Assembly (NCBI GenBank): GCA_017474455.1
Contig: JAFVHP010000037.1
Coordinates: forward strand, 62,001-126,000
Reading direction: 5' to 3'
Source of the DNA: Lachnospiraceae bacterium
Lineage (GTDB): Bacteria; Bacillota; Clostridia; Lachnospirales; Lachnospiraceae
Length of the DNA stretch: 64,000 bases
The notes under the pieces are model-generated. The model searched no databases and had not been told where the DNA came from. It worked only from the letters and a program-made list of their open reading frames with translations. Shown here piece after piece: positions 1,920 to 23,460 of the stretch. The translations under genes were made by a program, and so were the position numbers. Position 1 is the stretch's first letter. Each line of letters begins with the position of its first letter.

Positions 1920-1948
1920 TTGACACCGGTGCCGGGCCGCTGTACACT
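1920..1948 (+). promoter_or_regulatory. Sigma-A promoter of asnB
   Basis: TTGACA (1920-1925), 17-base spacer, TACACT (1943-1948). The predicted start near 1955 is only about 12 bases before the hairpin at 1967, so that hairpin would be transcribed as part of the asnB leader. Confidence 0.65.
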
Positions 1949-1966
1949 ACTGATTCATAAAGGCAA

Positions 1967-2003
1967 AGGCGCCGTGGAGATGTATGCTCCATGGCGCCTT
2001 TTT
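1967..2003 (+). terminator. Terminator-like hairpin in the asnB leader (candidate attenuator)
   Basis: A 13-bp stem (AGGCGCCGTGGAG with CTCCATGGCGCCT, one G-T pair) with loop ATGTATG is followed by TTTTT. No plus-strand gene precedes it, because the upstream flavodiiron gene is divergent; it sits between the asnB promoter and the asnB ribosome binding site. It is therefore better explained as a leader attenuator than as the end of another transcript. A near-copy lies after asnB at 3743. Confidence 0.6.
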
Positions 2004-2035
2004 CTTTGTAAAAATCAGAGAATGGAGGCGGTAAT

Positions 2036-3736
2036 ATGTGTTCGATCATCGGCTATTGCGGAAAAAACGGGAGTTATGAAGAGATCGGGAAGGCTCTGGA
2101 GAAAACGCATTCGCGCGGTCCGGATGCCAGACGGATCATAAATACGGGCAGCGGCTGGCTCGGCTTCAACCGCCTCTCCATTATGGGACTGACAGGGGAG
2201 GGCATGCAGCCGTTCGCATTCGGGAACACACAGACGCTGAAGCCGGAGCAGTGCGGAGAGCACAAACATCAATACAGTATGCCTGACGGGAGCGAGATAC
2301 TGCTGGTCTGCAACGGCGAGATCTACGGGTTCAGGATATTGAAAGAAGAGCTGAAGGAACTCGGATACCGGTTCATCAGTGACTCCGACTGCGAGATACT
2401 GCCGGCTTTATATAAGGAATTCGGTACCGATATGTTCCGCATGCTCGACGCTGAGTTCGCTCTCATTCTCTACGATGCGGAAGATGATACTTTTATTGCG
2501 GCAAGGGACCCGATCGGTATCCGTCCGCTGTATTACGGCACCACCGGCGACGGGACATATGTTTTCGCTTCGGAGCCGAAGAACCTGACGGAGCTGACAG
2601 ACAGGATCATGCCGTTTCCTCCCGGCCACTATTTTAAGAACGGGGAATTCGTCAGGTACAGGGATATGACTTCAGTGGAGAAAATCTGCGATGACAGCCC
2701 GGAGAAAACGTCGGTGAGGATCCATGACCTTCTTATCGACGGCGTAAAGAAGAGACTGGATTCGGATACGCCGGTGGGATTTCTGCTCTCAGGCGGTCTG
2801 GATTCTTCCCTTGTGTGCGGGATCGCGGCCAGACTTACGGACAGGCCGCTGGAGACCTGGGCGATCGGAATGGATATCGATGCGATCGACTTAAAATACG
2901 CGAAAGAGGTAGCGGAATACATCCATTCGAACCATCATGAGGTGATCATATCGGGCCAGGATGTCATCGACGCGCTGGAGAAAGTCATAGAGACCCTGGC
3001 CACATATGACATTACCACGATCAGGGCTTCCGTCGGGATGTACCTGGTGTGCAAAGCTATTCATGAACAGTCCGGCATCAGGGTCCTTCTGACCGGCGAG
3101 ATATCGGATGAGATCTTCGGGTACAAATATACGGATTTTGCGCCGGACGCGGCAGCTTTCCAGCAGGAAGCCGAAAAGAGGATAAGGGAGCTCCATATGT
3201 ATGACGTCCTGCGGGCAGACAGATGCATCAGCGTCAATTCACTGGAGGCCAGGGTGCCGTTCGGTGACCTGCGGTTCGTGGAGTACTGCATGTCGATCGA
3301 CCCGGAGAGGAAACTGAACCGGTACGGTAAGGGGAAATACCTGCTGCGGAAAGCATTTGAAAATGACGCACTTATACCGGATAGCATATTGTGGAGAGAA
3401 AAAGCGGCATTTTCCGACGCGGTCGGGCATTCACTCAAGGATGACCTTGCGCAGTACGCGGAAAGCATGTATACGGACGAGGAATTTGAAGAGGGCGTAA
3501 AGAAATACAGCCATGCCCGGCCCTTCACAAAGGAATCGCTCCTGTACCGTGATATTTTTGAAAAATACTATCCCGACCAGTCCGGTATGGTCACTGACTT
3601 CTGGATGCCGAACAGGGACTGGGAAGGCTGCGACGTGAACGATCCGTCGGCCAGGGTACTGTCGAACTACGGTGACAGCGGAAGTAAAAAAGCACTTGAC
3701 AATAAAAATCATCAGCAGTATCTTTTATTGCATTAA
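2036..3736 (+). CDS. asnB: Asparagine synthase (glutamine-hydrolysing)
   Basis: Makes asparagine from aspartate, ATP and glutamine amide nitrogen. It has 566 residues, close to the E. coli AsnB length. The N-terminal class II glutaminase domain starts with the nucleophile Cys2 (MCSIIGY) and has CNGEIYG at about 92-98; the synthetase domain has the pyrophosphate loop SGGLDSS at 252-258. A GGAGG site precedes the ATG. It opens the nitrogen block and has its own promoter plus an attenuator-like hairpin. The last 20 or so codons also contain a consensus promoter for the next gene (3696-3724), and the C-terminal tail there is lysine, asparagine and glutamine rich. Confidence 0.93.
   Translation: MCSIIGYCGKNGSYEEIGKALEKTHSRGPDARRIINTGSGWLGFNRLSIMGLTGEGMQPFAFGNTQTLKPEQCGEHKHQYSMPDGSEILLVCNGEIYGFRILKEELKELGYRFISDSDCEILPALYKEFGTDMFRMLDAEFALILYDAEDDTFIAARDPIGIRPLYYGTTGDGTYVFASEPKNLTELTDRIMPFPPGHYFKNGEFVRYRDMTSVEKICDDSPEKTSVRIHDLLIDGVKKRLDSDTPVGFLLSGGLDSSLVCGIAARLTDRPLETWAIGMDIDAIDLKYAKEVAEYIHSNHHEVIISGQDVIDALEKVIETLATYDITTIRASVGMYLVCKAIHEQSGIRVLLTGEISDEIFGYKYTDFAPDAAAFQQEAEKRIRELHMYDVLRADRCISVNSLEARVPFGDLRFVEYCMSIDPERKLNRYGKGKYLLRKAFENDALIPDSILWREKAAFSDAVGHSLKDDLAQYAESMYTDEEFEEGVKKYSHARPFTKESLLYRDIFEKYYPDQSGMVTDFWMPNRDWEGCDVNDPSARVLSNYGDSGSKKALDNKNHQQYLLLH
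3696..3724 (+). promoter_or_regulatory. Promoter inside the 3' end of asnB, driving the glnN leader
   Basis: TTGACA (3696-3701), exactly 17 bases, TATCTT (3719-3724). It overlaps the final codons of asnB. The sequence after it (CATTAAGGACAAAGGCG) closely resembles that after the asnB promoter (CATAAAGGCAAAGGCG), so the two promoter-leader units look homologous. Confidence 0.55.
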
Positions 3737-3742
3737 GGACAA

Positions 3743-3777
3743 AGGCGTCCTGGAGATAACCTCCAGGGCGCCTTTTT
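3743..3777 (+). terminator. Hairpin plus TTTTT: asnB terminator and/or glnN leader attenuator
   Basis: A 13-bp stem (AGGCGTCCTGGAG with CTCCAGGGCGCCT) and loop ATAAC are followed by TTTTTGCGCG. It lies 6 bases after the asnB stop, as a normal terminator would, but also about 20 bases after the -10 box of the promoter at 3696. The trailing TTTTTGCGCGT is repeated after the gltB leader hairpin (8171-8181). Confidence 0.7.
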
Positions 3778-3789
3778 GCGCGTAAACTA

Positions 3790-3945
3790 CAAGCCACGCA
3801 GCGTAAAGATCATATGGCTGCGGGCAAGCTTGCTTGTAACCGCAGCCATATGATCTTTACGCTATGCGGCGACAGCCGCGACTGAGCGACGCAAGTCGCG
3901 AAGTGCGGGGCTTGGAACAAGCCAGACGCCACGCAGCGGGGCTTG
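3790..3945 (+). ncRNA. Structured leader RNA of glnN (copy 1 of a two-copy motif)
   Basis: Four helices can be drawn. P1 is CAAGCCACGC (3790-3799) with GCGGGGCTTG (3905-3914). P2 is a perfect 23-bp inverted repeat (3801-3823 with 3840-3862). P3 is GCGGC-GACA-GCCGC (3866-3879). P4 is ACT-GA-GCGAC-GCAA-GTCGC-GA-AGT (3881-3904) with a tandem GA/GA internal loop. The gltB leader folds the same way with compensatory changes. A second copy of GCGGGGCTTG (3936-3945) and a local CAAGCC (3918-3923) give alternative partners for P1. I could not match it to a named RNA family; a cis-regulatory role is inferred from position. Confidence 0.6.
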
Positions 3946-3980
3946 TAACAGATCAGTATTTCATCGAATGGGAGGCCAGT

Positions 3981-6079
3981 ATGAAAAAACAAAACGTTCC
4001 TGAGATCTTCGGTTCCATGGTGTTTGACGACAGAGTCATGAGGTCAAGGCTCTCCGCGGATGTCTATAACTCGCTGAAGAAGACAATGGATGAGAATGCC
4101 GGCCTTGAACTCAGTGTTGCGGACGCCGTTGCTGCAGAGATGAGAGACTGGGCGGTGGAAAACGGGGCGACTCATTTTACCCACTGGTTTCAGCCGCTGA
4201 CCGGCGCCACCGCCGAGAAGCATGACAGTTTTATCACTCCTTCGCCCGACGGCGGAGTGATCATGGAGTTTTCCGGCAAAGAGCTGATCAAGGGCGAACC
4301 GGATGCATCCTCCTTCCCGTCAGGCGGGTTAAGGGCGACCTTTGAAGCCAGAGGCTATACAGCGTGGGACCCCACGTCCTATGCCTTCATCAAGGACCAT
4401 ACCCTCTGCATACCCACGGCGTTCTGTTCCTATTCCGGGGACGCGCTGGATAAGAAAACTCCTCTCTTACGTTCCATGCAGGCTCTCAACAAGCAGGCGA
4501 AGAGGATACTGAAATTATTCGGCAAGGATGTGAAATACGTCAGGACGAGCGTCGGCCCGGAACAGGAATACTTCCTGATCGACAGGCAGATGTTCGAGAA
4601 AAGGCCGGACCTCGTCTATACAGGCCGGACGCTGTTCGGCGCCATGCCTCCCAAGGGGCAGGAACTGGACGACCATTATTTCGGTGTTATCAAACCCAGG
4701 GTCACCGCTTTTATGGAAGACCTGAACAGCGAACTCTGGAAGCTCGGGATTCTCGCCAAGACGGAGCACAACGAAGTTGCCCCCGCCCAGCATGAGCTCG
4801 CCCCGATCTTTTCTACCACGAACGTGGCTACGGACAATAACCAGCTGACGATGGAGATCATGCAGAAAGTGGCCAGGAAGCACGACATGGTCTGCCTGCT
4901 GCATGAAAAACCCTTCGCAGGCGTCAACGGGTCCGGCAAGCACAACAACTGGTCGATGGCTACCGATACCGGCGTGAACCTCCTTTCCCCCGGGGATACG
5001 CCGTTTGAAAATGCCCAGTTCCTGCTCTTCCTGTGTGCGGTCGTGCAGGCAGTGGATGATTACCAGGATCTTCTGAGGCTGTCCGTCGCCACTGCCGGAA
5101 ATGACCACAGGCTCGGCGCGAACGAGGCGCCGCCCGCGATCATTTCAGTATTCCTGGGCGATGAACTGACCGCTGTCCTGGAAGCGATCAAGAACGATAC
5201 GCCGTACCAGGGAACGGAAAAGGTCATCATGAAACTCGGTGTCAGTTCGCTGCCGAGATTCTCCAGGGACAATACGGACAGGAACAGGACCTCGCCGTTT
5301 GCCTTTACCGGCAATAAGTTTGAATTCAGGTCCCTCGGGTCTTCCAACAGCATCGCCTGCTGCAACATCATGCTCAACGCGGCAGTGGCGGAAAGCCTGA
5401 AGCAGTACGCGGATATCCTGGAAGGGGCCGACGACTTCGAAGGAACGCTCCATGACCTGATCAAGGATACTGTAAAGAAGCATGAACGCATCCTGTTCAA
5501 CGGGAACGGGTACGGAGAAGAATGGATAAAGGAAGCAACGCAGGTCAGAGGCCTTTCCAACCTGAAGACGACAGCGGATGCCATGCCGCACCTTCTGGAC
5601 AAAAAGAACATGGACATGTTGATGGCACATAAAGTCTTCACGGAGTCCGAGCTTCATTCCAGGTGTGAGACATGCTCGAGAATTACTGCAAGAGCGTCAA
5701 TATCGAAGGGCATACGATGGTGGAGATGGTCAGGAAGAATTATCTGCCCGCTATCGAAGATTATCTTTACAGTCTGGCCAATGCCGCTTCCCTCATGCGG
5801 TCGGTCAGCCAGAACGTCAAGTGCAATTATGAGATCTCGACGCTGGAACGTCTGTCAGAGCTGACGGACGAGATCCTTGAAAAGGTACAGTGTCTGGAAG
5901 AGGCGCTGGAAGATCTCAAGGGGTACAGTGATGTGATCGCCACATCGCAGGCCGTCCGGGACGATCTGATCCCGAAGATGGAAGACTTAAGGAAATATGT
6001 CGATGAAGCGGAGATGCTGACCAGTGAAAAATACTGGCCGTTCCCGAGCTACGGGAAGCTCCTGTTCAGCGTTTACTGA
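3981..6079 (+). CDS. glnN: Glutamine synthetase type III (apparent frameshift near 5670)
   Basis: Joins ammonium to glutamate using ATP; cytosolic. With one base restored the product is about 699 residues, the expected size for the type III (GlnN) family. The N-terminal GSIII beta-grasp region and the catalytic region are visible (SVGPEQEYFLID, NEVAPAQHELAP, GVNGSGKHNNWS, and GNDHRLGANEAPPA). The chosen start is the ATG at 3981 behind GGGAGG; the longer open frame upstream is leader RNA. The frame breaks between 5667 and 5672 (after LHSRCE); the family C-terminus (MLENYCKSVNIEG onward) continues in the next frame to 6079. It follows an unusual structured leader and precedes the ammonium transporter. 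Confidence 0.9.
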
Positions 6080-6122
6080 TAAAGGGCAGGCACGGCAGTA
6101 AAAACGGTATAGGATATTGACA

Positions 6123-6221
6123 GCTGTATCGGCAGATGAGCCGGTGCAGCCAAAGAAAATAAATACAGGGTCATCCCACAACGATGTGGTTCGTTCACAA
6201 GGCGCGGGATGGCCCTTTTTT
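6123..6221 (+). promoter_or_regulatory. Candidate ANTAR-type antitermination leader before amt
   Basis: Hairpin 1 is an 11-bp stem (6123-6133 with 6140-6150) closing the hexaloop AGATGA. Hairpin 2 is CCAC-AACGAT-GTGG (6176-6189), again a hexaloop. A terminator follows: GGGTCATCCC (6168-6177) with GGGATGGCCC (6206-6215) and six Ts (6216-6221). Hairpin 2 shares bases 6176-6177 with the terminator 5' arm. This is the layout known for ANTAR targets, whose loops carry A at position 1 and G at position 4. Loop 2 fits that; loop 1 has the A but T at position 4. The terminator itself is solid and may simply end the glnN transcript. Confidence 0.45.
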
Positions 6222-6250
6222 ATTAAGAACAGACGGAAGGAGAAAAAGTC

Positions 6251-8023
6251 ATGACAAAAGAGATAATGAAAGTATTGGACGGGGAGATATTTGCCGTATG
6301 GTTCCTCATCGGCGCGGCCTTCGTATTCTGGATGCAGGCAGGTTTTGCCATGTGCGAAGCCGGGTTTACAAGGGCAAAGAACGCCGGCAACATCATCATG
6401 AAGAATCTCATGGATTTCTGTATCGGGACAGTCATGTGGTTCATCTGCGGGGCATCCCTGATGCTGGGGGAGAACATCCTCGGCGGATTTGCCGGCGGCT
6501 TCAGCTTCGATGTGTTTACGAACTACAGGAACTTTGACTACTCTGCTTTTGTTTTCAACCTGGTGTTCTGCGCGACGACGGCGACGATCGTATCCGGATC
6601 CATGGCCGAGAGGACGAAGTTCTCGAGCTACTGCATCTATTCCGCAGTCATCTCGGCCGTCATCTATCCGATCGAAGCGCACTGGACGTGGGGCGGAGGT
6701 TTCCTTTCCCAGTGGGGATTCCATGATTACGCGGGTTCGAACTGCATCCATATGGTCGGCGGCATCTGTGCCTTTATCGGCGCCTGGATGCTGGGACCCA
6801 GGATCGGCAAGTTCGAACGGGACAGAAGAGGAAAAGTCACGAAAGTCAATGCATTTCCCGGCCACAACCTTGTCATAGCCGCTCTTGGCGTATTTATCCT
6901 GTGGCTCGGCTGGTACGGTTTCAACGGCGCGGCAGCTACGGATGTGCCGACCCTCGGCAGCGTCTTTCTTACAACAACGGTAGCGCCAGCGGTAGCCACT
7001 GTGGTCTGCATGATCTTCACCTGGGTCAAATACGGCAAGCCGGATGTTTCCATGTGCCTGAACGCTTCCCTGGCGGGGCTGGTCGCGATAACAGCGCCAT
7101 GCGATGTCGCCGACTGTGCCGGCGCGGCCGTCATCGGGGCGGTCTCAGGGCTGCTGGTCGTCTTCGGCGTATGGTTCAATGACCAGGTCACTCATGTGGA
7201 CGATCCTGTCGGCGCGGTTGCCGTCCACATGATAAACGGGATATGGGGCACCGTCGCGGTCGGGCTGTTCGCGACCGAAAGCGCGCCCGGATTCGCATCT
7301 GCGGGCATCCGTGAGGGACTGTTCTACGGCGGCGGGTTCTGGCAGCTGGGAAGGCAGCTCGGCGGCATGTTCGTGACCGCGGCCTGGACAGTAGTGACGA
7401 TCATCATCGCCTTTTCCGTGATCAGGAAGACAGCCGGACTTCGAGTATCGGAAGAAGAGGAGATCAGCGGCCTCGACGTGACGGAACACGGCCTTCCTTC
7501 CGCTTATGCGGGCTTTTCGATCATGGATATCTCCAACACGATGACCATGAGCGTAAACGAGAACACGAACCTGGGCTCCGATGATTATGCCCTGGCTTCC
7601 GAAGCGGCAAAGAATGCGGCCATCACCGTATCCAACGTCGGCAACGCCGTCATACCGGGGATCGAGACAGGTATTTCCAAGGTCGTCATCATTGCCAAAC
7701 TGGCCAGATACGAGATCTTAAAACGCGCCATGAACGATCTGGGCGTGACCGGCATGACAGTCACACAGGTGATGGGCTGCGGCATACAGAAGGGTGCCGG
7801 CGAAAGGTACCGCGGCGTCGAGATCGACGCGACGCTCCTTCCCAAGGTCAAGGTAGAAGTGGTGGTCAGCGCGATCCCCGTGGACGATGTGATCGATGCG
7901 GCCAAGAAAGCGCTCTATACCGGACATATAGGCGACGGCAAGATCTTTGTCTATCCTGTGAGCCGGGTCGTAAAAGTACGTACGGGCGAGGAAAACTTTG
8001 CCGCGCTGCAGGATGTGGAATAA
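6251..8023 (+). CDS. amt: Ammonium transporter with fused C-terminal P-II domain
   Basis: Membrane ammonium channel of 590 residues, about 150 longer than a plain Amt. The N-terminal 400 or so residues form the Amt core (GFAMCEAGFTR near the start, WTWGGGFLSQWG, DFAGS-like DYAGSNCIHMVGG, WLGWYGFNG). Residues 474-590 are a complete P-II protein: the T-loop KGAGERYRG with the conserved Tyr at 520, the B-loop TGHIGDGKIFV, and the C-terminal VRTGEENF. P-II proteins normally plug Amt channels in response to 2-oxoglutarate, ATP and ADP; here the regulator is covalently attached. A GGAGAAAAAGTC site precedes the ATG at 6251. It is preceded by a terminator-bearing leader and followed by gltB. Confidence 0.92.
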   Translation: MTKEIMKVLDGEIFAVWFLIGAAFVFWMQAGFAMCEAGFTRAKNAGNIIMKNLMDFCIGTVMWFICGASLMLGENILGGFAGGFSFDVFTNYRNFDYSAFVFNLVFCATTATIVSGSMAERTKFSSYCIYSAVISAVIYPIEAHWTWGGGFLSQWGFHDYAGSNCIHMVGGICAFIGAWMLGPRIGKFERDRRGKVTKVNAFPGHNLVIAALGVFILWLGWYGFNGAAATDVPTLGSVFLTTTVAPAVATVVCMIFTWVKYGKPDVSMCLNASLAGLVAITAPCDVADCAGAAVIGAVSGLLVVFGVWFNDQVTHVDDPVGAVAVHMINGIWGTVAVGLFATESAPGFASAGIREGLFYGGGFWQLGRQLGGMFVTAAWTVVTIIIAFSVIRKTAGLRVSEEEEISGLDVTEHGLPSAYAGFSIMDISNTMTMSVNENTNLGSDDYALASEAAKNAAITVSNVGNAVIPGIETGISKVVIIAKLARYEILKRAMNDLGVTGMTVTQVMGCGIQKGAGERYRGVEIDATLLPKVKVEVVVSAIPVDDVIDAAKKALYTGHIGDGKIFVYPVSRVVKVRTGEENFAALQDVE

Positions 8024-8083
8024 ATGCGGGGGATATACTTGATTTATGGGAGCGGCAGTGATAAAAATATATGTAAATTTGAA

Positions 8084-8112
8084 TTGCCAACGGCGGCAGT
8101 AATTCTTAAATA
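8084..8112 (+). promoter_or_regulatory. Promoter of the gltB leader
   Basis: TTGCCA (8084-8089), 17 bases, TAAATA (8107-8112) in an AT-rich stretch after amt. The predicted start near 8119 is about 20 bases before the hairpin at 8140, the same order of elements as at asnB and glnN. Confidence 0.5.
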
Positions 8113-8139
8113 AATATTTCAACATCGGTTCTGGGAGCA

Positions 8140-8175
8140 ACGGCGCTTCGGGTCTTTACCTGAAGCGCCGTTTTT
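8140..8175 (+). terminator. Hairpin plus TTTTT between amt and gltB (terminator or attenuator)
   Basis: A 13-bp stem (ACGGCGCTTCGGG with CCTGAAGCGCCGT, one G-T pair) closes the loop TCTTTA and is followed by TTTTTGCGCGT, as before the glnN leader RNA. It can end the amt transcript, but lies 116 bases beyond the amt stop and just after a promoter. Confidence 0.7.
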
Positions 8176-8190
8176 GCGCGTTAGCAATGA

Positions 8191-8316
8191 GCCACGCGTT
8201 CCAGGAATTGACAGCTTTCTCCGGGACCTTGCTCACGGGAGGAAGCTGTCAAGACCTGGAACATGCGGCGAATGCCGCGACAGTGAGCGTCCAGCGGACG
8301 CGAACTGCAGCGTGGC
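8191..8316 (+). ncRNA. Structured leader RNA of gltB (copy 2 of the motif)
   Basis: The helix order matches the glnN leader. P1 is GCCACGC (8191-8197) with GCGTGGC (8310-8316). P2 is GTTCCAGG and TTGACAGCTT (8198-8217) with AAGCTGTCAA and CCTGGAAC (8243-8262). P3 is GCGGC-GAAT-GCCGC (8265-8278). P4 is CAGT-GA-GCGTCC-AGC-GGACGC-GA-ACTG (8281-8307) with the same tandem GA/GA loop. P2 and the P4 stem differ in sequence from the glnN copy while pairing is kept. Bases 8317-8369 hold more GC-rich sequence and the AGGG site before the gene, with nothing else recognised. Confidence 0.6.
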
Positions 8317-8369
8317 GGTGTAGCCTCGTGGCAGCATGGCGCAGAACACCGGAACCACGGAGGGCATCC

Positions 8370-11300
8370 ATGACAGACCTTAAAGAGATGATCCGCGGAT
8401 CGGGATTGTATGATCCGTCTTTTGAACATGACAACTGCGGGATAGGCGCGATCGCCGACATAAAGGGGAGAAAGAGCCACGGACTCGTCAGCGATGCCCT
8501 TTCGATCGTCGAAAACCTGGAGCACAGGGCCGGAAAGGACGCGTCGGGACAGACCGGGGATGGCGTCGGCATCCTGACGCAGATCCCCCACCGCTTTTTC
8601 GTGAAAAAGCTGGCGGAACAGGGCGTGGAGCTGCCCGGTGAAAGGCAGTACGGCGTCGGCATGTTCTTTTTCCCGCAGAAGGACCTGGACAGGAAGCAGG
8701 CCATGAGCCTGTTTTCGATCATAGTCAGGAAAGCGGGCATGGAGCTTCTGGCCTGGAGAAAGGTCGGATCCGATCCGGATATCCTGGGGCAGCGCGCCAG
8801 GGAATGCATGCCGGACATATACCAGGCCTTTATCGCAAGGCCGGTCGGGATCGAAAAGGATATCGACTTTGAACGGATGCTCTACGTCGTGCGCAGAGAG
8901 TTCGAGAAGAGCAGCGTGGATACCTATATCCCGTCGCTGTCCTGCAGGACCATCGTTTACAAGGGCATGTTCCTTGTGAAGCAGCTGCGTACGTTCTATA
9001 CGGACCTGATGGACGGGGATTATGAATCGGCCATTGCAGTTGTCCATTCCCGTTTTTCCACTAATACCGACCCCAGCTGGATGCGTGCGCATCCCAACCG
9101 CCTGCTGGTCCATAACGGAGAGATAAATACGATCCGCGGCAATGCGGACAAGATGCTGGCCAGGGAGGAGACCATGCATACCGGCCTGTTTACGGACGAC
9201 GATATGACAAAGGTCCTGCCCGTGATCAGCCAGAGCGGTTCGGATTCCGCCATGCTGGACAACACACTGGAATTTCTGATGATGAGCGGCATGGATCTGC
9301 CGCTGGCGGCGATGATCATGATCCCGGAACCCTGGGCGCATAACGAGACGCTTTCACAGGAAGAGAGGGATTTTTACCAGTATTACGCGACAATGATGGA
9401 ACCCTGGGACGGGCCGGCTTCCATCGTGTTCTCGGACGGGGACGTGATGGGAGCGATACTGGACCGGAACGGCCTTCGGCCGTCAAGATATGCCGTTACG
9501 GATGACGGAAGGCTCATCCTTTCATCGGAAGTCGGCGTCCTCCCCCTGGACGAAAGGCACATCGTCAGAAAAGAGCGTCTTCATCCGGGCAAACTTCTCC
9601 TGGCGGATACGCTTAAGGGCAGGATCATCGAGGATGAAGAGATCAAGGAAAAGTATGCGCACGCCAGGCCTTTCGGGGAATGGCTGGACAGCAACCTTAT
9701 CTCGCTTTCGGACCTGAAGATCCCGAACCACAGGATCCCGGCCCTTAAGGGCAGGGAATTAAAACGGCTGCAGAAAGCATTCGGATACACCTGGGAGAAC
9801 TTTCACGACGGTATCCTGAATATGGCCCTCAATGGCACGGAGAGCATAGGCTCGATGGGCGTGGATACGCCGATCGCCGCGCTGTCAAAGACATATCAGC
9901 CCCTTTTCTATTATTTCAAACAGTTATTTGCCCAGGTGACCAATCCCCCGATCGACGCCGAAAGAGAAAAGATCGTCACTTCCAGCACGGTATATGTGGG
10001 CAAGAACGGCAACCTTCTCGGACAGGATCCGGAAAACTGTCATGTGCTCAAGATCAACAACCCTATCCTGACAGATCTGGATCTGTTAAAGATATCCGGA
10101 ATGAAAAGAGACGGGTTCACCGTATCCAGGGTCTCCATTCTCTATTACAAAAGCACCCCGATGGAGCAGGTGATAAGGTCCCTGTTCGTCCAGGTGGACA
10201 GGGCATATAAGGACGGGGCGGATATCCTGATCCTTTCGGACCGGGGCGTGGATGAGAACCATGTGGCCATCCCGTCCCTTCTGGCTGTGGCAGCGGTCCA
10301 CAAACATCTCGTCGATACGAAAAAGTGTACTGCCATGTCCCTCATCCTCGAATCCGGGGAGCCGAGGGAAGTCCATCACTTCGCGGCGCTCCTGGGGTAC
10401 GGCGCCTCAGCCGTAAACCCTTATCTGGCACATGCGTCGATCGCCGAACTTGTAGAGGACGAATTCCTCGACAAGGATTATTACGCGGCGGTCGAAGATT
10501 ATGACAGGGCGATCCTTTCCGGTATCATCAAGATCGCTTCCAAAACGGGCATCTCGACCATACAGTCCTATCAGGGCAGCAAGATATTCGAGGCGCTCGG
10601 CATTTCCGGAGAAGTCATAAACGAATACTTCACAGGCACTGTCAGCCGTGTGGGCGGCATCACACTGGAAGACATCGGCAGGGCTGTCGATGCCCAGCAC
10701 AGCCGGGCTTTCGATCCGCTGGGACTGTATGCCGATCTGGAACTGACCGACCAGGGCAGGCACAAATCCAGAAGCCGGGGCGAGCACCACAGGTATAGTC
10801 CTCAGGTCATCCATATGCTGCAGAAAGCTGTCAGGGACGGCAGTTTTGATGAGTACCTCGTTTATGCAAGGATGGCGGATGCCGAAGATTCCGGATATCT
10901 GCGGAGCCTTCTTGATTTCCGGTACTCGGAGTCGCAGGTCCCGCTGGACGAGGTGGAAAGCGAGGAGGAGATCGTAAAGAGATTCAAGACCGGCGCCATG
11001 TCCTACGGCTCCATTTCCGAAGAAGCGCACGAGACTCTGGCTGTTGCCATGAACCGACTGCACGGCAAGTCCAACAGCGGCGAAGGCGGTGAGAGTGAAG
11101 AAAGACTGCTTTCCGCCGGCACGGACAATGACAGGAGTTCGGCCATCAAACAGGTTGCCAGCGGGAGGTTCGGCGTGACGAGCCGTTATCTTGTCAGCGC
11201 AAAGGAGATACAGATCAAGATGGCCCAGGGGGCAAAGCCCGGCGAGGGCGGCCACCTGCCGGGCAGGAAGGTCTATCCCTGGATCGCTAGGACAAGGCAT

Positions 11301-12926
11301 TCAACGCCCGGCGTAAGCCTGATATCACCTCCACCCCATCATGACATCTATTCGATCGAAGATCTGGCGCAGCTTATATATGACCTCAAAAACGCGAACG
11401 ATTCGGCCAGGATATCCGTGAAACTGGTCTCCGAAGCCGGTGTGGGTACGGTCGCCGCCGGCGTCGCGAAAGCAGGCGCGCAGGTGATCCTTATCTCCGG
11501 TTATGACGGAGGGACCGGGGCTGCGCCGCTCTCATCGATCCATAATGCCGGGCTCCCGTGGGAGCTGGGCGTGGCTGAAACGCACCAGACCCTGATCGCA
11601 AACGGCCTCAGGCAGCAGGTCGTGATCGAGACGGACGGAAAACTGATGAACGGCAGGGACGTAGCCGTCGCGGCGATCCTCGGGGCGGAAGAATTCGGGT
11701 TTGCGACAGCCCCGCTGATCACACTAGGATGTGTGATGATGAGAGCCTGCCAGTCGGACACCTGCCCCATGGGCGTTGCCACGCAGAATCCGGAATTAAG
11801 GAAGAGATTTTCCGGAAAACCGGAATATGTCGAGAACTTTATGCTGTTCACAGCCAGACAGCTCAGGATGATCATGGCAGAACTGGGTGTAAGGAGCATA
11901 AAGGAACTGGTCGGCCGCACTGATCTGCTTAAGGTCAAAGACGGCCTTTCTGAGAAGCAGAAGAAACTGGACCTGTCCGGCATCCTGCTGGATATGTCCG
12001 GATATGCAGGCGAAGGGGCTGTTTTTGATCCTGCGTGCCAATATGACTTCAGACTGCAGGATACGAAAGACGAAAAAGAGCTCCTTTCGTCAAAAGCTGT
12101 CATCAAAGCACTTGAAAAGGGAGAAAAAGCAAGACTTTCTGTACGGCTTGGCAATACGGACCGGACTTTCGGCACCCTTCTCGGCGCGCAGATCACCAGG
12201 CGGTATCCGGAAGGCCTGCCGGAGGATACAGTCACCGTGGACTGCCGCGGCGCCGGGGGACAGAGTTTCGGCGCATTTATCCCCGCCGGGCTGAGCCTGA
12301 TCCTGACCGGTGAGACCAATGACTATTTCGGCAAAGGGCTTTCGGGCGGAAAGCTTGTCGTAAAGGCTCCGGAAGAAGCCGGATACGATCCCGGTGAAAA
12401 TATCATTGCCGGAAATGTGGCGCTCTACGGAGGAACGTCGGGAGAAGCCTTTATAGCCGGTATGGCAGGTGAGAGATTCGCTGTCCGCAACTCCGGCGCA
12501 TCTGCCGTCGTCGAAGGTGTAGGCGAGCACGGATGCGAATATATGACCGGCGGCTGCGTCGTCATACTCGGTACTACCGGCAAGAATTTTGCGGCCGGTA
12601 TGAGCGGAGGCATCGCTTATGTACTGGATGAGGACAGCAGCCTGTACAGGAACCTGAACAGGGAACTGGTCCTGATGGGTCCGGTGGAGCTAAAGAGCGA
12701 TCTGGACGAACTTCACCGCATGATAGAAAAACATGTGCTTTATACCGGCTCAAAGAAAGGGCAGAGGATCCTGGAGGAGTTTGACCGTCATATACCGCAT
12801 TTTAAAAAGATCATCCCCCGGGACTACATGGAGATACGAAGGCTCATTGCCATGAATGAGGAGCGGGGAGCCGGACCGGAAGAGGCCGGTATAGAAGCCT
12901 TCCGGACATTTGTAGGAGGTATGTGA
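8370..12926 (+). CDS. gltB: Glutamate synthase large subunit
   Basis: Converts glutamine and 2-oxoglutarate to two glutamates together with GltD. It has 1518 residues, normal for the family. A short propeptide is expected to be removed to expose the nucleophile Cys23 (EHDNCGIG) of the class II glutaminase domain. The central and FMN domains follow, with the 3Fe-4S cysteine region (MRACQSDTCPMGVATQ) and the C-terminal glycine-rich beta-helix repeats (GGSGGEAF-like segments). The start at 8370 has an AGGG-type site; the open frame runs further upstream but through the structured leader. It overlaps gltD by one base. Confidence 0.95.
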   Translation: MTDLKEMIRGSGLYDPSFEHDNCGIGAIADIKGRKSHGLVSDALSIVENLEHRAGKDASGQTGDGVGILTQIPHRFFVKKLAEQGVELPGERQYGVGMFFFPQKDLDRKQAMSLFSIIVRKAGMELLAWRKVGSDPDILGQRARECMPDIYQAFIARPVGIEKDIDFERMLYVVRREFEKSSVDTYIPSLSCRTIVYKGMFLVKQLRTFYTDLMDGDYESAIAVVHSRFSTNTDPSWMRAHPNRLLVHNGEINTIRGNADKMLAREETMHTGLFTDDDMTKVLPVISQSGSDSAMLDNTLEFLMMSGMDLPLAAMIMIPEPWAHNETLSQEERDFYQYYATMMEPWDGPASIVFSDGDVMGAILDRNGLRPSRYAVTDDGRLILSSEVGVLPLDERHIVRKERLHPGKLLLADTLKGRIIEDEEIKEKYAHARPFGEWLDSNLISLSDLKIPNHRIPALKGRELKRLQKAFGYTWENFHDGILNMALNGTESIGSMGVDTPIAALSKTYQPLFYYFKQLFAQVTNPPIDAEREKIVTSSTVYVGKNGNLLGQDPENCHVLKINNPILTDLDLLKISGMKRDGFTVSRVSILYYKSTPMEQVIRSLFVQVDRAYKDGADILILSDRGVDENHVAIPSLLAVAAVHKHLVDTKKCTAMSLILESGEPREVHHFAALLGYGASAVNPYLAHASIAELVEDEFLDKDYYAAVEDYDRAILSGIIKIASKTGISTIQSYQGSKIFEALGISGEVINEYFTGTVSRVGGITLEDIGRAVDAQHSRAFDPLGLYADLELTDQGRHKSRSRGEHHRYSPQVIHMLQKAVRDGSFDEYLVYARMADAEDSGYLRSLLDFRYSESQVPLDEVESEEEIVKRFKTGAMSYGSISEEAHETLAVAMNRLHGKSNSGEGGESEERLLSAGTDNDRSSAIKQVASGRFGVTSRYLVSAKEIQIKMAQGAKPGEGGHLPGRKVYPWIARTRHSTPGVSLISPPPHHDIYSIEDLAQLIYDLKNANDSARISVKLVSEAGVGTVAAGVAKAGAQVILISGYDGGTGAAPLSSIHNAGLPWELGVAETHQTLIANGLRQQVVIETDGKLMNGRDVAVAAILGAEEFGFATAPLITLGCVMMRACQSDTCPMGVATQNPELRKRFSGKPEYVENFMLFTARQLRMIMAELGVRSIKELVGRTDLLKVKDGLSEKQKKLDLSGILLDMSGYAGEGAVFDPACQYDFRLQDTKDEKELLSSKAVIKALEKGEKARLSVRLGNTDRTFGTLLGAQITRRYPEGLPEDTVTVDCRGAGGQSFGAFIPAGLSLILTGETNDYFGKGLSGGKLVVKAPEEAGYDPGENIIAGNVALYGGTSGEAFIAGMAGERFAVRNSGASAVVEGVGEHGCEYMTGGCVVILGTTGKNFAAGMSGGIAYVLDEDSSLYRNLNRELVLMGPVELKSDLDELHRMIEKHVLYTGSKKGQRILEEFDRHIPHFKKIIPRDYMEIRRLIAMNEERGAGPEEAGIEAFRTFVGGM

Positions 12927-14443: not shown

Positions 14444-17308
<2,865 letters not shown>

Positions 17309-21675: not shown

Positions 21676-22851
21676 ATGAGCTATACGATCGATGAAGTGA
21701 TGAAGTATATCGAGGATGAAGACGCGAAGTTTATCAGACTGGCGTTCCGGGATGCGTTCGGCGTACAGAAGAATATCTCCGTACGGCCCGGGGAAGTCAT
21801 GAAGGCTTTTGAGAACGGCGCCCGGATCAACGCGTCGGATATCGCAGGGTTTGAGGACTGCCCGTATCCGGCGCTGTATCTGAAACCGGATCCGTCAACG
21901 CTGGCCGTGCTGCCCTGGAGGCCCGACACCGGCAAGGTGCTCCGTATGTTCTGTGATGTACGGACGCCGGACGGCAGTGAATACGCTTCCGACACCAGGG
22001 TCATCCTGAAAAAAGCTTCCGAAAAGGCAAAAGAGGCCGGCATTGAATTCAGGTTCGGTTCGGAAACAGAATTCTATCTTTTCCTGAAAGATGAGGAAGG
22101 CCGCCCTACAAAGATACCGTACGACAGTGCGGGGTATCTGGATGTGGCACCGTTGGACAGGTGTGAAAACGTCAGGCGTGAGATCAGCCTGACGATCGAA
22201 CGGATGGGCCTTACTCCGGAAAGATCGTATCATGAGCGTGGGCCGGGACAGAACGAGATCGATTTCCACTACGCGAGGCCTCTGAAGGCGGCCGACCAGA
22301 TGACGACCTTCAGGATGGCTGCCAGTACGGTCGCCGACCGCTACGGACTTATCTGTGATTTTTCGCCGCAGCCGCTGCCAGACCACCCCGGGAACGGATA
22401 CCATATCAACATTTATGCGTCGGACCGGGACGGTGAGGACGTTGTGAAGTACGCAGCGGCCGGTATCCTGAACAGGATCAGGGATATTACTCTGTTCCTG
22501 AACCCGACGGACGCTTCCTATTCAAGACTCGGCAGCCCTGCCGTGCCTGACCGGGTGAACTGGTCGGCGACAGATGAGTCGGAACTGCTCTATGTGGAGA
22601 CGTACAGCGGCAGGACACGTGCTGAGCTGCGTTCCCCCGACGCGTCCGGAAACCCCTACCTGATCTATTCCCTGCTCATGATGGCCGGGCTCGAGGGTAT
22701 CAGGCAAAAGGCCGTGCTGCCGGAGCAGGCGGGCGAAAGCGGCGCCCCCCTGCCTTCTTCCAGAAAGGAAGCCGGTGAGATCGCATGCCGCAGTGAATTT
22801 GTCAAAGCGTATGTCCCTGAGGGGATCATCAGGAAATACATCAACGGATAA
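21676..22851 (+). CDS. Glutamine-synthetase-like protein (short, ammonium-site residues altered)
   Basis: 391 residues, about 50 to 80 shorter than type I glutamine synthetase. Metal and glutamate site elements are kept: GSETEFYLF, GPGQNEIDF, GNGYHINIY and AELRSPDASGNPYL. Two elements tied to ammonium binding in classical enzymes are not: the FDGSS-type loop reads INASDIAGF, with Asn where the ammonium-binding Asp is expected, and the PGYEAP flap with its catalytic Glu is replaced by GSPAVPD. It may ligate glutamate to another amine, or act as a sensor. It sits 21 bases upstream of the ANTAR regulator and is probably cotranscribed. Family assignment is firm, function is not. Confidence 0.75.
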   Translation: MSYTIDEVMKYIEDEDAKFIRLAFRDAFGVQKNISVRPGEVMKAFENGARINASDIAGFEDCPYPALYLKPDPSTLAVLPWRPDTGKVLRMFCDVRTPDGSEYASDTRVILKKASEKAKEAGIEFRFGSETEFYLFLKDEEGRPTKIPYDSAGYLDVAPLDRCENVRREISLTIERMGLTPERSYHERGPGQNEIDFHYARPLKAADQMTTFRMAASTVADRYGLICDFSPQPLPDHPGNGYHINIYASDRDGEDVVKYAAAGILNRIRDITLFLNPTDASYSRLGSPAVPDRVNWSATDESELLYVETYSGRTRAELRSPDASGNPYLIYSLLMMAGLEGIRQKAVLPEQAGESGAPLPSSRKEAGEIACRSEFVKAYVPEGIIRKYING

Positions 22852-22872: not shown

Positions 22873-23460
22873 ATGCCGGACAGAAAAGACATCTCTCACT
22901 CCATACTGATCGTATCCGGGTCTGAACAGTTCGACAGCGCGGTCAAAAAGGCGCTTCCGGCAGGCAGCGCCGCCGCTGTCGATGTCAGAAGGAGCGAAGC
23001 CCTGGCCAGAAGGGGCGTCCTGGACAGGTTCTACGATATCGTGGTGATCAACGCGCCTCTTCCTGACGGGATGGGTATCGATCTCGCGATGGATATCGCG
23101 GAGAACGGCAGGGTTTCGGTCTGTCTTGTCACCCCGCAGGAGATCTATGACCAGGTGCTGGATCATGTAACGGATTACGGGATACTGGTCCTATCAAAAT
23201 CTTTCCCGCCGGAGCGTCTGAGCCATGCGCTCCGTTTCCTTATCGCATCCCGGGACAGAATGTCTGCCCTGGAAGCAGAGATCGAATCGGTCAAGGACAG
23301 GATGGAAGAACAGCGCCTGATCAGCAAGGCGAAATTTCTCCTGATCGAAAAGAAGCATATGACGGAAGATGAAGCGCACCGCTATATAGGCCGCCAGGCT
23401 ATGAACAGCGGCATGTCAAGGAAAAAGATCGCTGAACAGCTGCTGGAGGATCTGGAGTAG
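22873..23460 (+). CDS. ANTAR-domain RNA-binding regulator with degenerate receiver
   Basis: 195 residues. Residues 1-125 resemble a response-regulator receiver, but the phosphoacceptor position is Asn60 (DIVVINAPLPDG) and the acidic pair is missing (ILIVSGSEQ); the conserved Lys is present at 109. Residues about 135-192 form the three-helix ANTAR domain (ISKAKFLLIEKKHMTEDEAH, then RQAMNSGMSRKKIAEQLL). ANTAR proteins bind paired hexaloop RNA hairpins and prevent termination. With no phosphorylatable Asp, activation is probably by protein contact or ligand. AGGAG precedes the ATG. The likely targets are the leaders in this same block, notably amt. Confidence 0.88.
   Translation: MPDRKDISHSILIVSGSEQFDSAVKKALPAGSAAAVDVRRSEALARRGVLDRFYDIVVINAPLPDGMGIDLAMDIAENGRVSVCLVTPQEIYDQVLDHVTDYGILVLSKSFPPERLSHALRFLIASRDRMSALEAEIESVKDRMEEQRLISKAKFLLIEKKHMTEDEAHRYIGRQAMNSGMSRKKIAEQLLEDLE

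Follow-up and report, generated by a model that had tools for sequence, protein, structure and literature searches.

Two folded elements in the glnN and gltB leaders

The window analysed here, a stretch of 64,000 nucleotides from a Lachnospiraceae bacterium (assembly GCA_017474455.1, contig JAFVHP010000037.1, positions 62,001 to 126,000), carries on its forward strand open reading frames for a type III glutamine synthetase, glnN (3981–5864), and for the large subunit of glutamate synthase, gltB (8370–12926); both names come from an earlier note on this DNA, and homologues of gltB were also found. The leader of each gene contains a folded element on the same strand, copy 1 at 3790–3914 and copy 2 at 8191–8316, which the earlier note had described as a conserved RNA and a plausible sensor of glutamine, ammonium or 2-oxoglutarate status. 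We found that both copies are members of a dispersed, non-coding, multi-copy intergenic repeat family of Lachnospiraceae, ~130 nt in length, referred to here as R1. A covariance model of the element, also named R1 and matched by its own training copies by construction, scored copy 1 at 70.3 bits (E 5.8e-13) and copy 2 at 100.1 bits (E 6.3e-20).

Both copies fold into a four-way junction, in which the closing helix, P1, encloses three others: P2, which is long, P3 with its five pairs, and P4. In copy 1 (−84.7 kcal/mol when folded alone), P1 is formed by 3790–3795/3909–3914 plus 3797–3799/3905–3907, P2 by 3800–3863, P3 by 3866–3870/3875–3879, and P4 by 3881–3904, with a GA/GA loop at 3884–3885/3900–3901. 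The corresponding helices of copy 2 (−82.0 kcal/mol) are P1 8191–8197/8310–8316, P2 8198–8262, P3 8265–8269/8274–8278, and P4 8281–8307 with GA/GA at 8285–8286/8302–8303. P3 reads GCGGC-GACA-GCCGC in copy 1 and GCGGC-GAAT-GCCGC in copy 2, P4 changes from ACT[GA]GCGAC..GTCGC[GA]AGT to CAGT[GA]GCGTCC..GGACGC[GA]ACTG, and the two P2 helices have no sequence relation, yet both are paired. These folds agree with the coordinates, joints and pairings that the earlier note had given for both leaders, including a P2 that differs in sequence but stays paired and a P4 that changes around a retained tandem GA/GA loop.

The wider leaders (3780–3990 and 8180–8390) were more stable than their dinucleotide shuffles (z of −10.3 and −7.3, respectively), and 0 of 200 shuffles equalled them. 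The core pattern, allowing up to three mismatches, matched the window four times, twice exactly, and at least four matches occurred in one of 100 shuffles. Just 3' of copy 1, positions 3917–3948 (+) read CAAGCC..CCACGCAGCG..GGGGCTTG, which corresponds to both ends of copy 1 with the middle absent. This is probably a second element copy reduced to its ends, since a similar remnant lies at glnN of one relative and tandem copies occur in relatives.

Upstream of each element lies an attenuator that resembles the targets of ANTAR-domain proteins. In the glnN leader, an inferred promoter at 3696–3724 (TTGACA 3696–3701, 17 nt, TATCTT 3719–3724), with a similar layout in sister species, is followed by an attenuator at 3736–3777. 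This attenuator consists of an ANTAR-type hairpin at 3736–3751 (AGGAC-AAAGGC-GTCCT, loop A1/G4) and, overlapping it, a predicted terminator at 3741–3775 with a T-run at 3773–3777. A hexaloop scan and folding gave two ANTAR-type hairpins in the gltB leader, at 8083–8100 (ATTGCC-AACGGC-GGCAGT) and 8134–8149 (GGAGC-AACGGC-GCTTC), the second overlapped by a predicted terminator at 8139–8172 with its T-run at 8171–8175. A first ANTAR-type hairpin was not evident in the glnN leader. All of these features are on the forward strand.

A dispersed repeat family behind intrinsic terminators

The structural model was examined in an alignment (A2) of 25 of 31 candidate copies, comprising 24 loci and window copy 2; L004, L011, L062, L114, L133 and window copy 1 were omitted. 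Here and below, G000 is the source genome, other G labels are relatives, and L labels are single loci. The 46-pair structure was 90.3% paired across the 25 copies, with both sides changing in 30 pairs, and its covariation score was 0.422, compared with 0.153 for shuffled alignments and 0.038–0.082 when partners were slid. These figures support the conserved fold with compensatory change that the earlier note proposed. P3 is invariant in this alignment because the copies were gathered with a P3 pattern.

That pattern, with one mismatch allowed in the P3 region, gave matches in 38 of 146 related genomes, of which 35 belong to the same genus and many contain more than one copy. A covariance-model search of these relatives, an approach that the earlier note had suggested, recovered many homologues: R1 copies were present in 61 of the 146 genomes, namely 42 of 62 of the same genus (source included), 16 from other genera of the family and three from other families of the order. 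Copy number ranged from 0 to 19 per genome within one genus, so that the 'two copies' of the earlier note hold for the source genome, where the R1 search gave two copies plus a chance-level match at E 0.23, but not for the family. Among 391 genomes sampled from the class, 20 carried R1, 13 of these being Lachnospiraceae. Searches over >40 genomes ran with stricter filters, and R1 counts are lower bounds because the model missed a pair of copies at gltB of G058. An exact-pattern scan of a wider contig set gave, among the matches listed, mostly other phyla, which we read as chance. In total, 72 sources yielded 115 R1 matches; the counts of context, terminators and flanks given below refer to 77 of these, the weaker matches, many antisense to a listed copy, being left out.

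Presence of the element varied between orthologous leaders inspected by eye. At glnN, which is 90–93% identical to that of four sister species over the first 350 aa, the element was present in G000 and G012, reduced to its ends in G016 and absent from G058 and G005; the attenuator was kept in all five. At gltB, a single copy was present in G000 and two divergent copies in tandem in G058, and G005, G012 and G016 had no element. Of the G058 pair, the first adopts the family fold with a compensatory change of P3 to GCGC-GCCA-GCGC, and the second, as cut, folds otherwise. Across 60 gltB and glnN loci (the 30 best of each homologue search), R1 matched at E <= 1e-3 only the two window genes and one other glnN, with a weak match at L257 (E 0.049).

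The copies are intergenic. None of the 77 overlapped a called gene by >60 nt, and three (L184, L190 and L240) overlapped a gene end by 21–46 nt. Using a simple in-house gene finder, which called both neighbours for 70 copies, we observed 39 sense–sense, 15 divergent, 9 convergent and 7 antisense arrangements, the other 7 copies being those without both neighbours called. Forty of the 49 sense genes within 700 nt downstream were scanned and 34 were assigned a family. These genes were varied (trpE, trpD, aroB, carA, ileS, thiE, rpsB, rimP, and aldolase, sugar and cell-wall genes), several of the names being our reading of family matches, and neither glutamine synthetase nor glutamate synthase was among the 34.

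About half of the examined copies sit directly behind an intrinsic terminator, located either at a 3' end or in a leader, where it is the attenuator of a T-box, thiamine pyrophosphate (TPP) or ANTAR-type system. A hairpin followed by a T-run was found upstream of 38 of the 77 copies, the T-run starting 15–22 nt before P1. The same signal occurred at 328 of 7524 random positions (4.4%), which include coding DNA, and on the 3' side of 7 of 77 copies in antisense and 3 of 77 in sense, which serve as the intergenic control. T-boxes were detected upstream of L014, L016, L024, L027, L028 and L172 (E 2e-9 to 3e-17, all below the Rfam gathering score), and a TPP riboswitch, above its gathering score, upstream of L168. 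In two distant relatives (L062 and L114), the element starts 11–15 nt past the stop codon of a gene that we take, from its last residues, to be tuf.

Some loci carried further repeats. Tandem or decayed second copies lay within ~40 nt of the main element at L182, L191, L197, L203, L216, L219 and L241, and a second repeat, roughly TTGCGTCCCGACCGAATCCACAACAGTTCGAAAAACTG, was attached just 3' of L192, L217, L235 and L194, in three genomes.

Sequence comparison of the copies points to spread within genomes. For 30 of 60 copies, the nearest non-orthologous copy lay in the same genome, compared with a mean of 8.7 and a maximum of 21 in 5000 permutations. L198 and L199 are 93% identical, and L208 and L210 90% identical, in unrelated flanks; in such close pairs, homology runs from about GCGCG-P1 to P1'. 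Between G037 and G028, the copies at trpD are 63% identical, with flanking genes at 82%, and the G037 trpD copy is 90% identical to the copy at a phenylacetate-CoA ligase gene of the same genome. Other orthologous pairs were closer, up to 100% (L218/L230). R1 thus shows the marks of a dispersed mobile repeat, with many intergenic copies, presence or absence at orthologous sites, and near-identical copies in unrelated flanks. The earlier note had itself named a mobile palindromic repeat at random sites as an outcome that would undo its reading, and this came true in part, R1 being a dispersed repeat at many sites.

Pairing chemistry and mode of spread

We consider it likely that R1 elements are a mobile, dispersed folding repeat located behind terminators, a passenger at glnN and gltB, where nitrogen control would belong to the attenuator and an ANTAR protein. 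The element would spread by insertion downstream of terminator hairpins, with one of its strands probably passing through a single-stranded DNA stage; such a stage is suggested because the helices are nearly free of G·U and carry G·A mismatches on just one of the two strands. In the glnN and gltB leaders, the element would be transcribed only on read-through of the ANTAR-type attenuator and may modulate the mRNA passively, and nitrogen control would fall to the attenuator together with the ANTAR protein encoded at 22873–23460.

Pair counts were taken from the top 66 of the 115 R1 rows. In paired columns, G·A/A·G mismatches numbered 194 versus 10 C·T, which argues that one strand carries the fold, and the + strand folded better in 63 of the 66 copies. 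G·U occupied 35 cells and A·C 34. Among pairs of predicted minimum free energy structures, G·U made up 1.4% in the element, compared with 13% in six T-boxes, 11% in eight tRNAs, 7% in one TPP riboswitch, 8.6% in the upstream terminators, 12.7% in shuffled element copies and 2.3% in Clostridiales-1 (Rfam RF01699; 15 of 20 copies), a family discussed below. Between 16 close pairs of copies we counted 27 double Watson–Crick changes (14 transversion-type) and 11 single changes that created or removed a G·U pair. It looks, on this indirect evidence, as though pairing is kept at the DNA level. The strand specificity of the G·A pairs speaks against a pure DNA palindrome, and the scarcity of G·U speaks against a model based on RNA alone.

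A candidate mobilising partner emerged from a comparison of gene content. Certain Y1 proteins of these genomes, which we take to be RAYT-like, were selected by eye as open frames of at least 200 aa that match Y1_Tnp weakly. They occurred in 22 of 30 genomes with strong ('canonical') R1 copies (best E < 1e-20) versus 4 of 32 others (p 1.6e-6), with both the R1 threshold and the protein class set after seeing the data. For genomes with any R1 match the figures were 23 of 42 versus 3 of 20 (p 0.005). No such association with strong R1 was seen for short Y1 proteins (18 of 30 genomes compared with 16 of 32, p 0.46). When independent pairs were taken from a pyrG tree covering 47 genomes, a weak control, four favoured the association of R1 with RAYT-like proteins, none opposed it and three were ties. 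Thirty-seven of 40 RAYT-like proteins fell into one loose single-linkage cluster with several subgroups by eye; the three outside it came from G019 (two) and G057. In G061, a genome without an R1 match, 38 Y1 transposase matches were seen, largely an IS200-like burst. REP/REPIN repeats with their RAYT are, like R1, intergenic palindromic repeats that spread within genomes, but REPs are 20–40 bp long (PMC3733652) and do not form a four-way junction.

Several observations weigh against the mobile-repeat interpretation. The downstream gene was in sense orientation at 54 copies and antisense at 16, of the 70 with both neighbours, a bias that could mean function. No transposase occurred among the 34 downstream genes named (40 scanned), no target-site duplication was shown, and 39 of the 77 copies lacked a terminator by the score used. 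At E <= 10, R1 matched none of 20 RAYT-like loci of 2.4–4.3 kb, so that the arrangement of REP–RAYT systems, a RAYT gene flanked by its own repeats, was not seen for R1 at these loci. The 27 double changes stand beside 51 single-side changes off or back to Watson–Crick pairing in the same 16 pairs (17 G·A, 11 G·U, 8 A·C, 4 C·T and 11 other). Finally, strand-specific G·A pairs and the CUUG apical loop also fit a folded RNA.

Of the other explanations, the one that fares best attributes the compensatory changes of P2 to template switching, in which one hairpin arm is copied from the other, a DNA process rather than RNA selection. The excess of double Watson–Crick over G·U changes in the close pairs, and the transversion-type share of the former, would fit such copying. 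It is nevertheless doubtful, given the 51 single-side changes, the presence of single changes only in the four closest pairs, and the fixed G·A interruptions that many copies retain in P2, which arm copying would erase.

It is less probable still, and in our judgement unlikely, that R1 is a genuine RNA serving some general function downstream of terminators, for instance in processing, in stability or against read-through, and that it was retained in sense orientation and spread only secondarily. The sense bias, the strand-specific G·A pairs, the better fold of the + strand and a UGAG/CGAA motif in common with RF01699 all speak for such a role. However, G·U pairs are nearly absent and no more frequent than A·C, copy number within one genus runs from none to 19, and at glnN the element is absent from some relatives and a remnant in another.

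Clostridiales-1, nitrogen control and wider implications

No Rfam family was matched in the window at gathering scores. RF01699 (cut-off 48 bits) gave no match in the window, none at E <= 10 for 3700–8400 and none in the source genome, but it matched two R1 members above its cut-off, L003 (51.7 bits) and L013 (52.7 bits). Across 45 scanned sources, which include a few identical places, the only further match was L163 (31.7 bits, below the cut-off). In the reverse direction, R1 weakly matched one RF01699 copy, L304 (22.5 bits, E 0.0016). The Rfam search that the earlier note proposed thus left the window copies without a match, and the other outcome that it had named as refuting, a hit to an already described RNA, was borne out in part, through two other family members.

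The two families have in common a closing P1, a long P2 with a GCUUGC apical loop, and GA/GA-interrupted helices. Both window copies show the P1, the long P2 and the GA/GA loop; the apical loop reads CCUUGC in copy 2, with GCUUGC confined to copy 1, whose P2 is without the GA interruption. Clostridiales-1 is, like R1, poor in G·U and present many times in these genomes, reaching 18 copies, the number of candidates that were scored in each genome. It differs in its 166-nt model, long P3 and different P4, and in having no T-run directly before the element in 20 copies inspected (L315 out of register); at one copy, L310, a terminator lies further upstream. On these comparisons R1 is probably a sister family of RF01699 rather than a member. 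We regard as improbable the proposal that the element is a divergent member of the Clostridiales-1 family and hence a small RNA (sRNA): the two matches above the cut-off, the weak match to L304 and the shared architecture are in its favour, but they are outweighed by the lack of any match in the window even with E relaxed to 10, the restriction of matches to three copies among 45 sources, one of them below the cut-off, and the differences in P3, P4 and the preceding T-run.

Clostridiales-1 has been rated as probably an RNA and probably not cis-regulatory (Weinberg et al. 2010, PMC2864571). In the genomes studied here it is itself high-copy, dispersed and nearly G·U-free (L303–L322). A few copies (L304, L305 and L322) have TA on both sides, as a mobile element might show; most do not. 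Re-examination of this Rfam family, listed as an sRNA, is suggested.

Pneumococcal BOX elements are, like R1, small interspersed structured repeats co-transcribed with genes, and one of them forms a composite leader with two T-boxes; they differ in sequence and in their modular A-B-C build, and no terminator position rule was seen in the part of that account drawn on (PMC3049150). No earlier study of the R1 element was found in the literature searched for Clostridiales-1 and such repeats, a search that was not exhaustive. A group II intron-like origin, considered for the terminator target and GUGYG-like 5' end, was dropped, as no intron domains were seen by eye, with no dedicated search made. 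Retron and integron attC origins were dropped on helix order.

The interpretation of R1 as a nitrogen-status riboswitch or protein-binding cis-regulator of ammonium-assimilation genes has very little left to recommend it: both source-genome copies precede glnN and gltB, in sense orientation within the 5' untranslated region and with a strong, covarying fold, but neither glutamine synthetase nor glutamate synthase was named near other copies, only 1 of 58 gltB/glnN loci from other genomes had R1 at E <= 1e-3, several sister leaders are without the element, and the ANTAR-type attenuators would already explain nitrogen control. The sensor role that the earlier note called plausible is therefore not upheld, and a test for linkage to nitrogen genes, which it had suggested, showed varied downstream genes across species. 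The glutamine riboswitches (glnA and Downstream-peptide), which are also found at nitrogen genes, had no Rfam match in the window and none at E <= 10 for 3700–8400, and are rejected on that ground.

Nitrogen control more likely comes from the ANTAR-type attenuators just upstream, which are neighbours of the element and distinct from it. ANTAR targets are described as hexaloop hairpins with A1 and G4, located ahead of the terminators of nitrogen genes (PMC3369931). The window hexaloops AAAGGC (3736–3751) and AACGGC (8134–8149 and 8083–8100) obey the A1/G4 rule; upstream of both elements such a hairpin lies on a terminator, and the genome encodes an ANTAR protein. The single PF03861 match in the source genome (1.2e-15 at G000:C19:85290-85445) falls in an open reading frame at 22873–23460 (+), directly behind a second glutamine synthetase gene (21676–22851, +), presumably of the glnA type. 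This ANTAR protein is likely the reader of these attenuators. Four further ANTAR-type hairpins occur elsewhere in the window, giving a total of six on the + strand and one on the − strand versus ~1 per strand in shuffles. A looser scan for an ANTAR-type hairpin before a T-run found 21 of 30 glnN and 6 of 30 gltB leaders (source included), compared with 142 of 3000 random windows, the gltB figure being only modestly above chance.

As an internal control, a leader at 1920–2004 (+), ahead of a gene that we take to be asnB-like, has a promoter and a GGC-AAAGGC-GCC attenuator/terminator but no element. The window therefore appears to hold a small ANTAR-type attenuator regulon comprising the asnB-like gene, glnN and gltB, and possibly an ammonium transporter with loop AACGAT (6165–6225), alongside the second glutamine synthetase and the ANTAR regulator. 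The glnN frame seems shifted near its 3' end (5600–6079), with the C-terminal part apparently in an open reading frame at 5672–6079, a frameshift that may be an assembly error or real. The pyrG frame at 15667–16710 also ends early, at 347 aa from the first start (open frame 392), most listed relatives having at least 540, and is possibly another frameshift in the assembly.

We tentatively raise a broader idea, which we hold with less confidence than the mobility of R1: R1, and possibly Clostridiales-1, may represent a class of mobile element in which a single DNA strand, its fold maintained by sheared G·A as well as Watson–Crick pairs, targets the tails of intrinsic terminators and is thereby carried time and again into riboswitch, T-box and ANTAR leaders. 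The terminator-tail position rule could account for the entry of these repeats into regulatory leaders. New riboswitches are usually argued from covariation together with a place before important genes, and here that reasoning led to a repeat. The share of G·U pairs and the strand bias of mismatches offer a cheap test separating RNA-level from DNA-level structure. If the idea is correct, some of the 'covarying RNAs' of comparative genomics would be DNA-level structures, marked by their lack of G·U.

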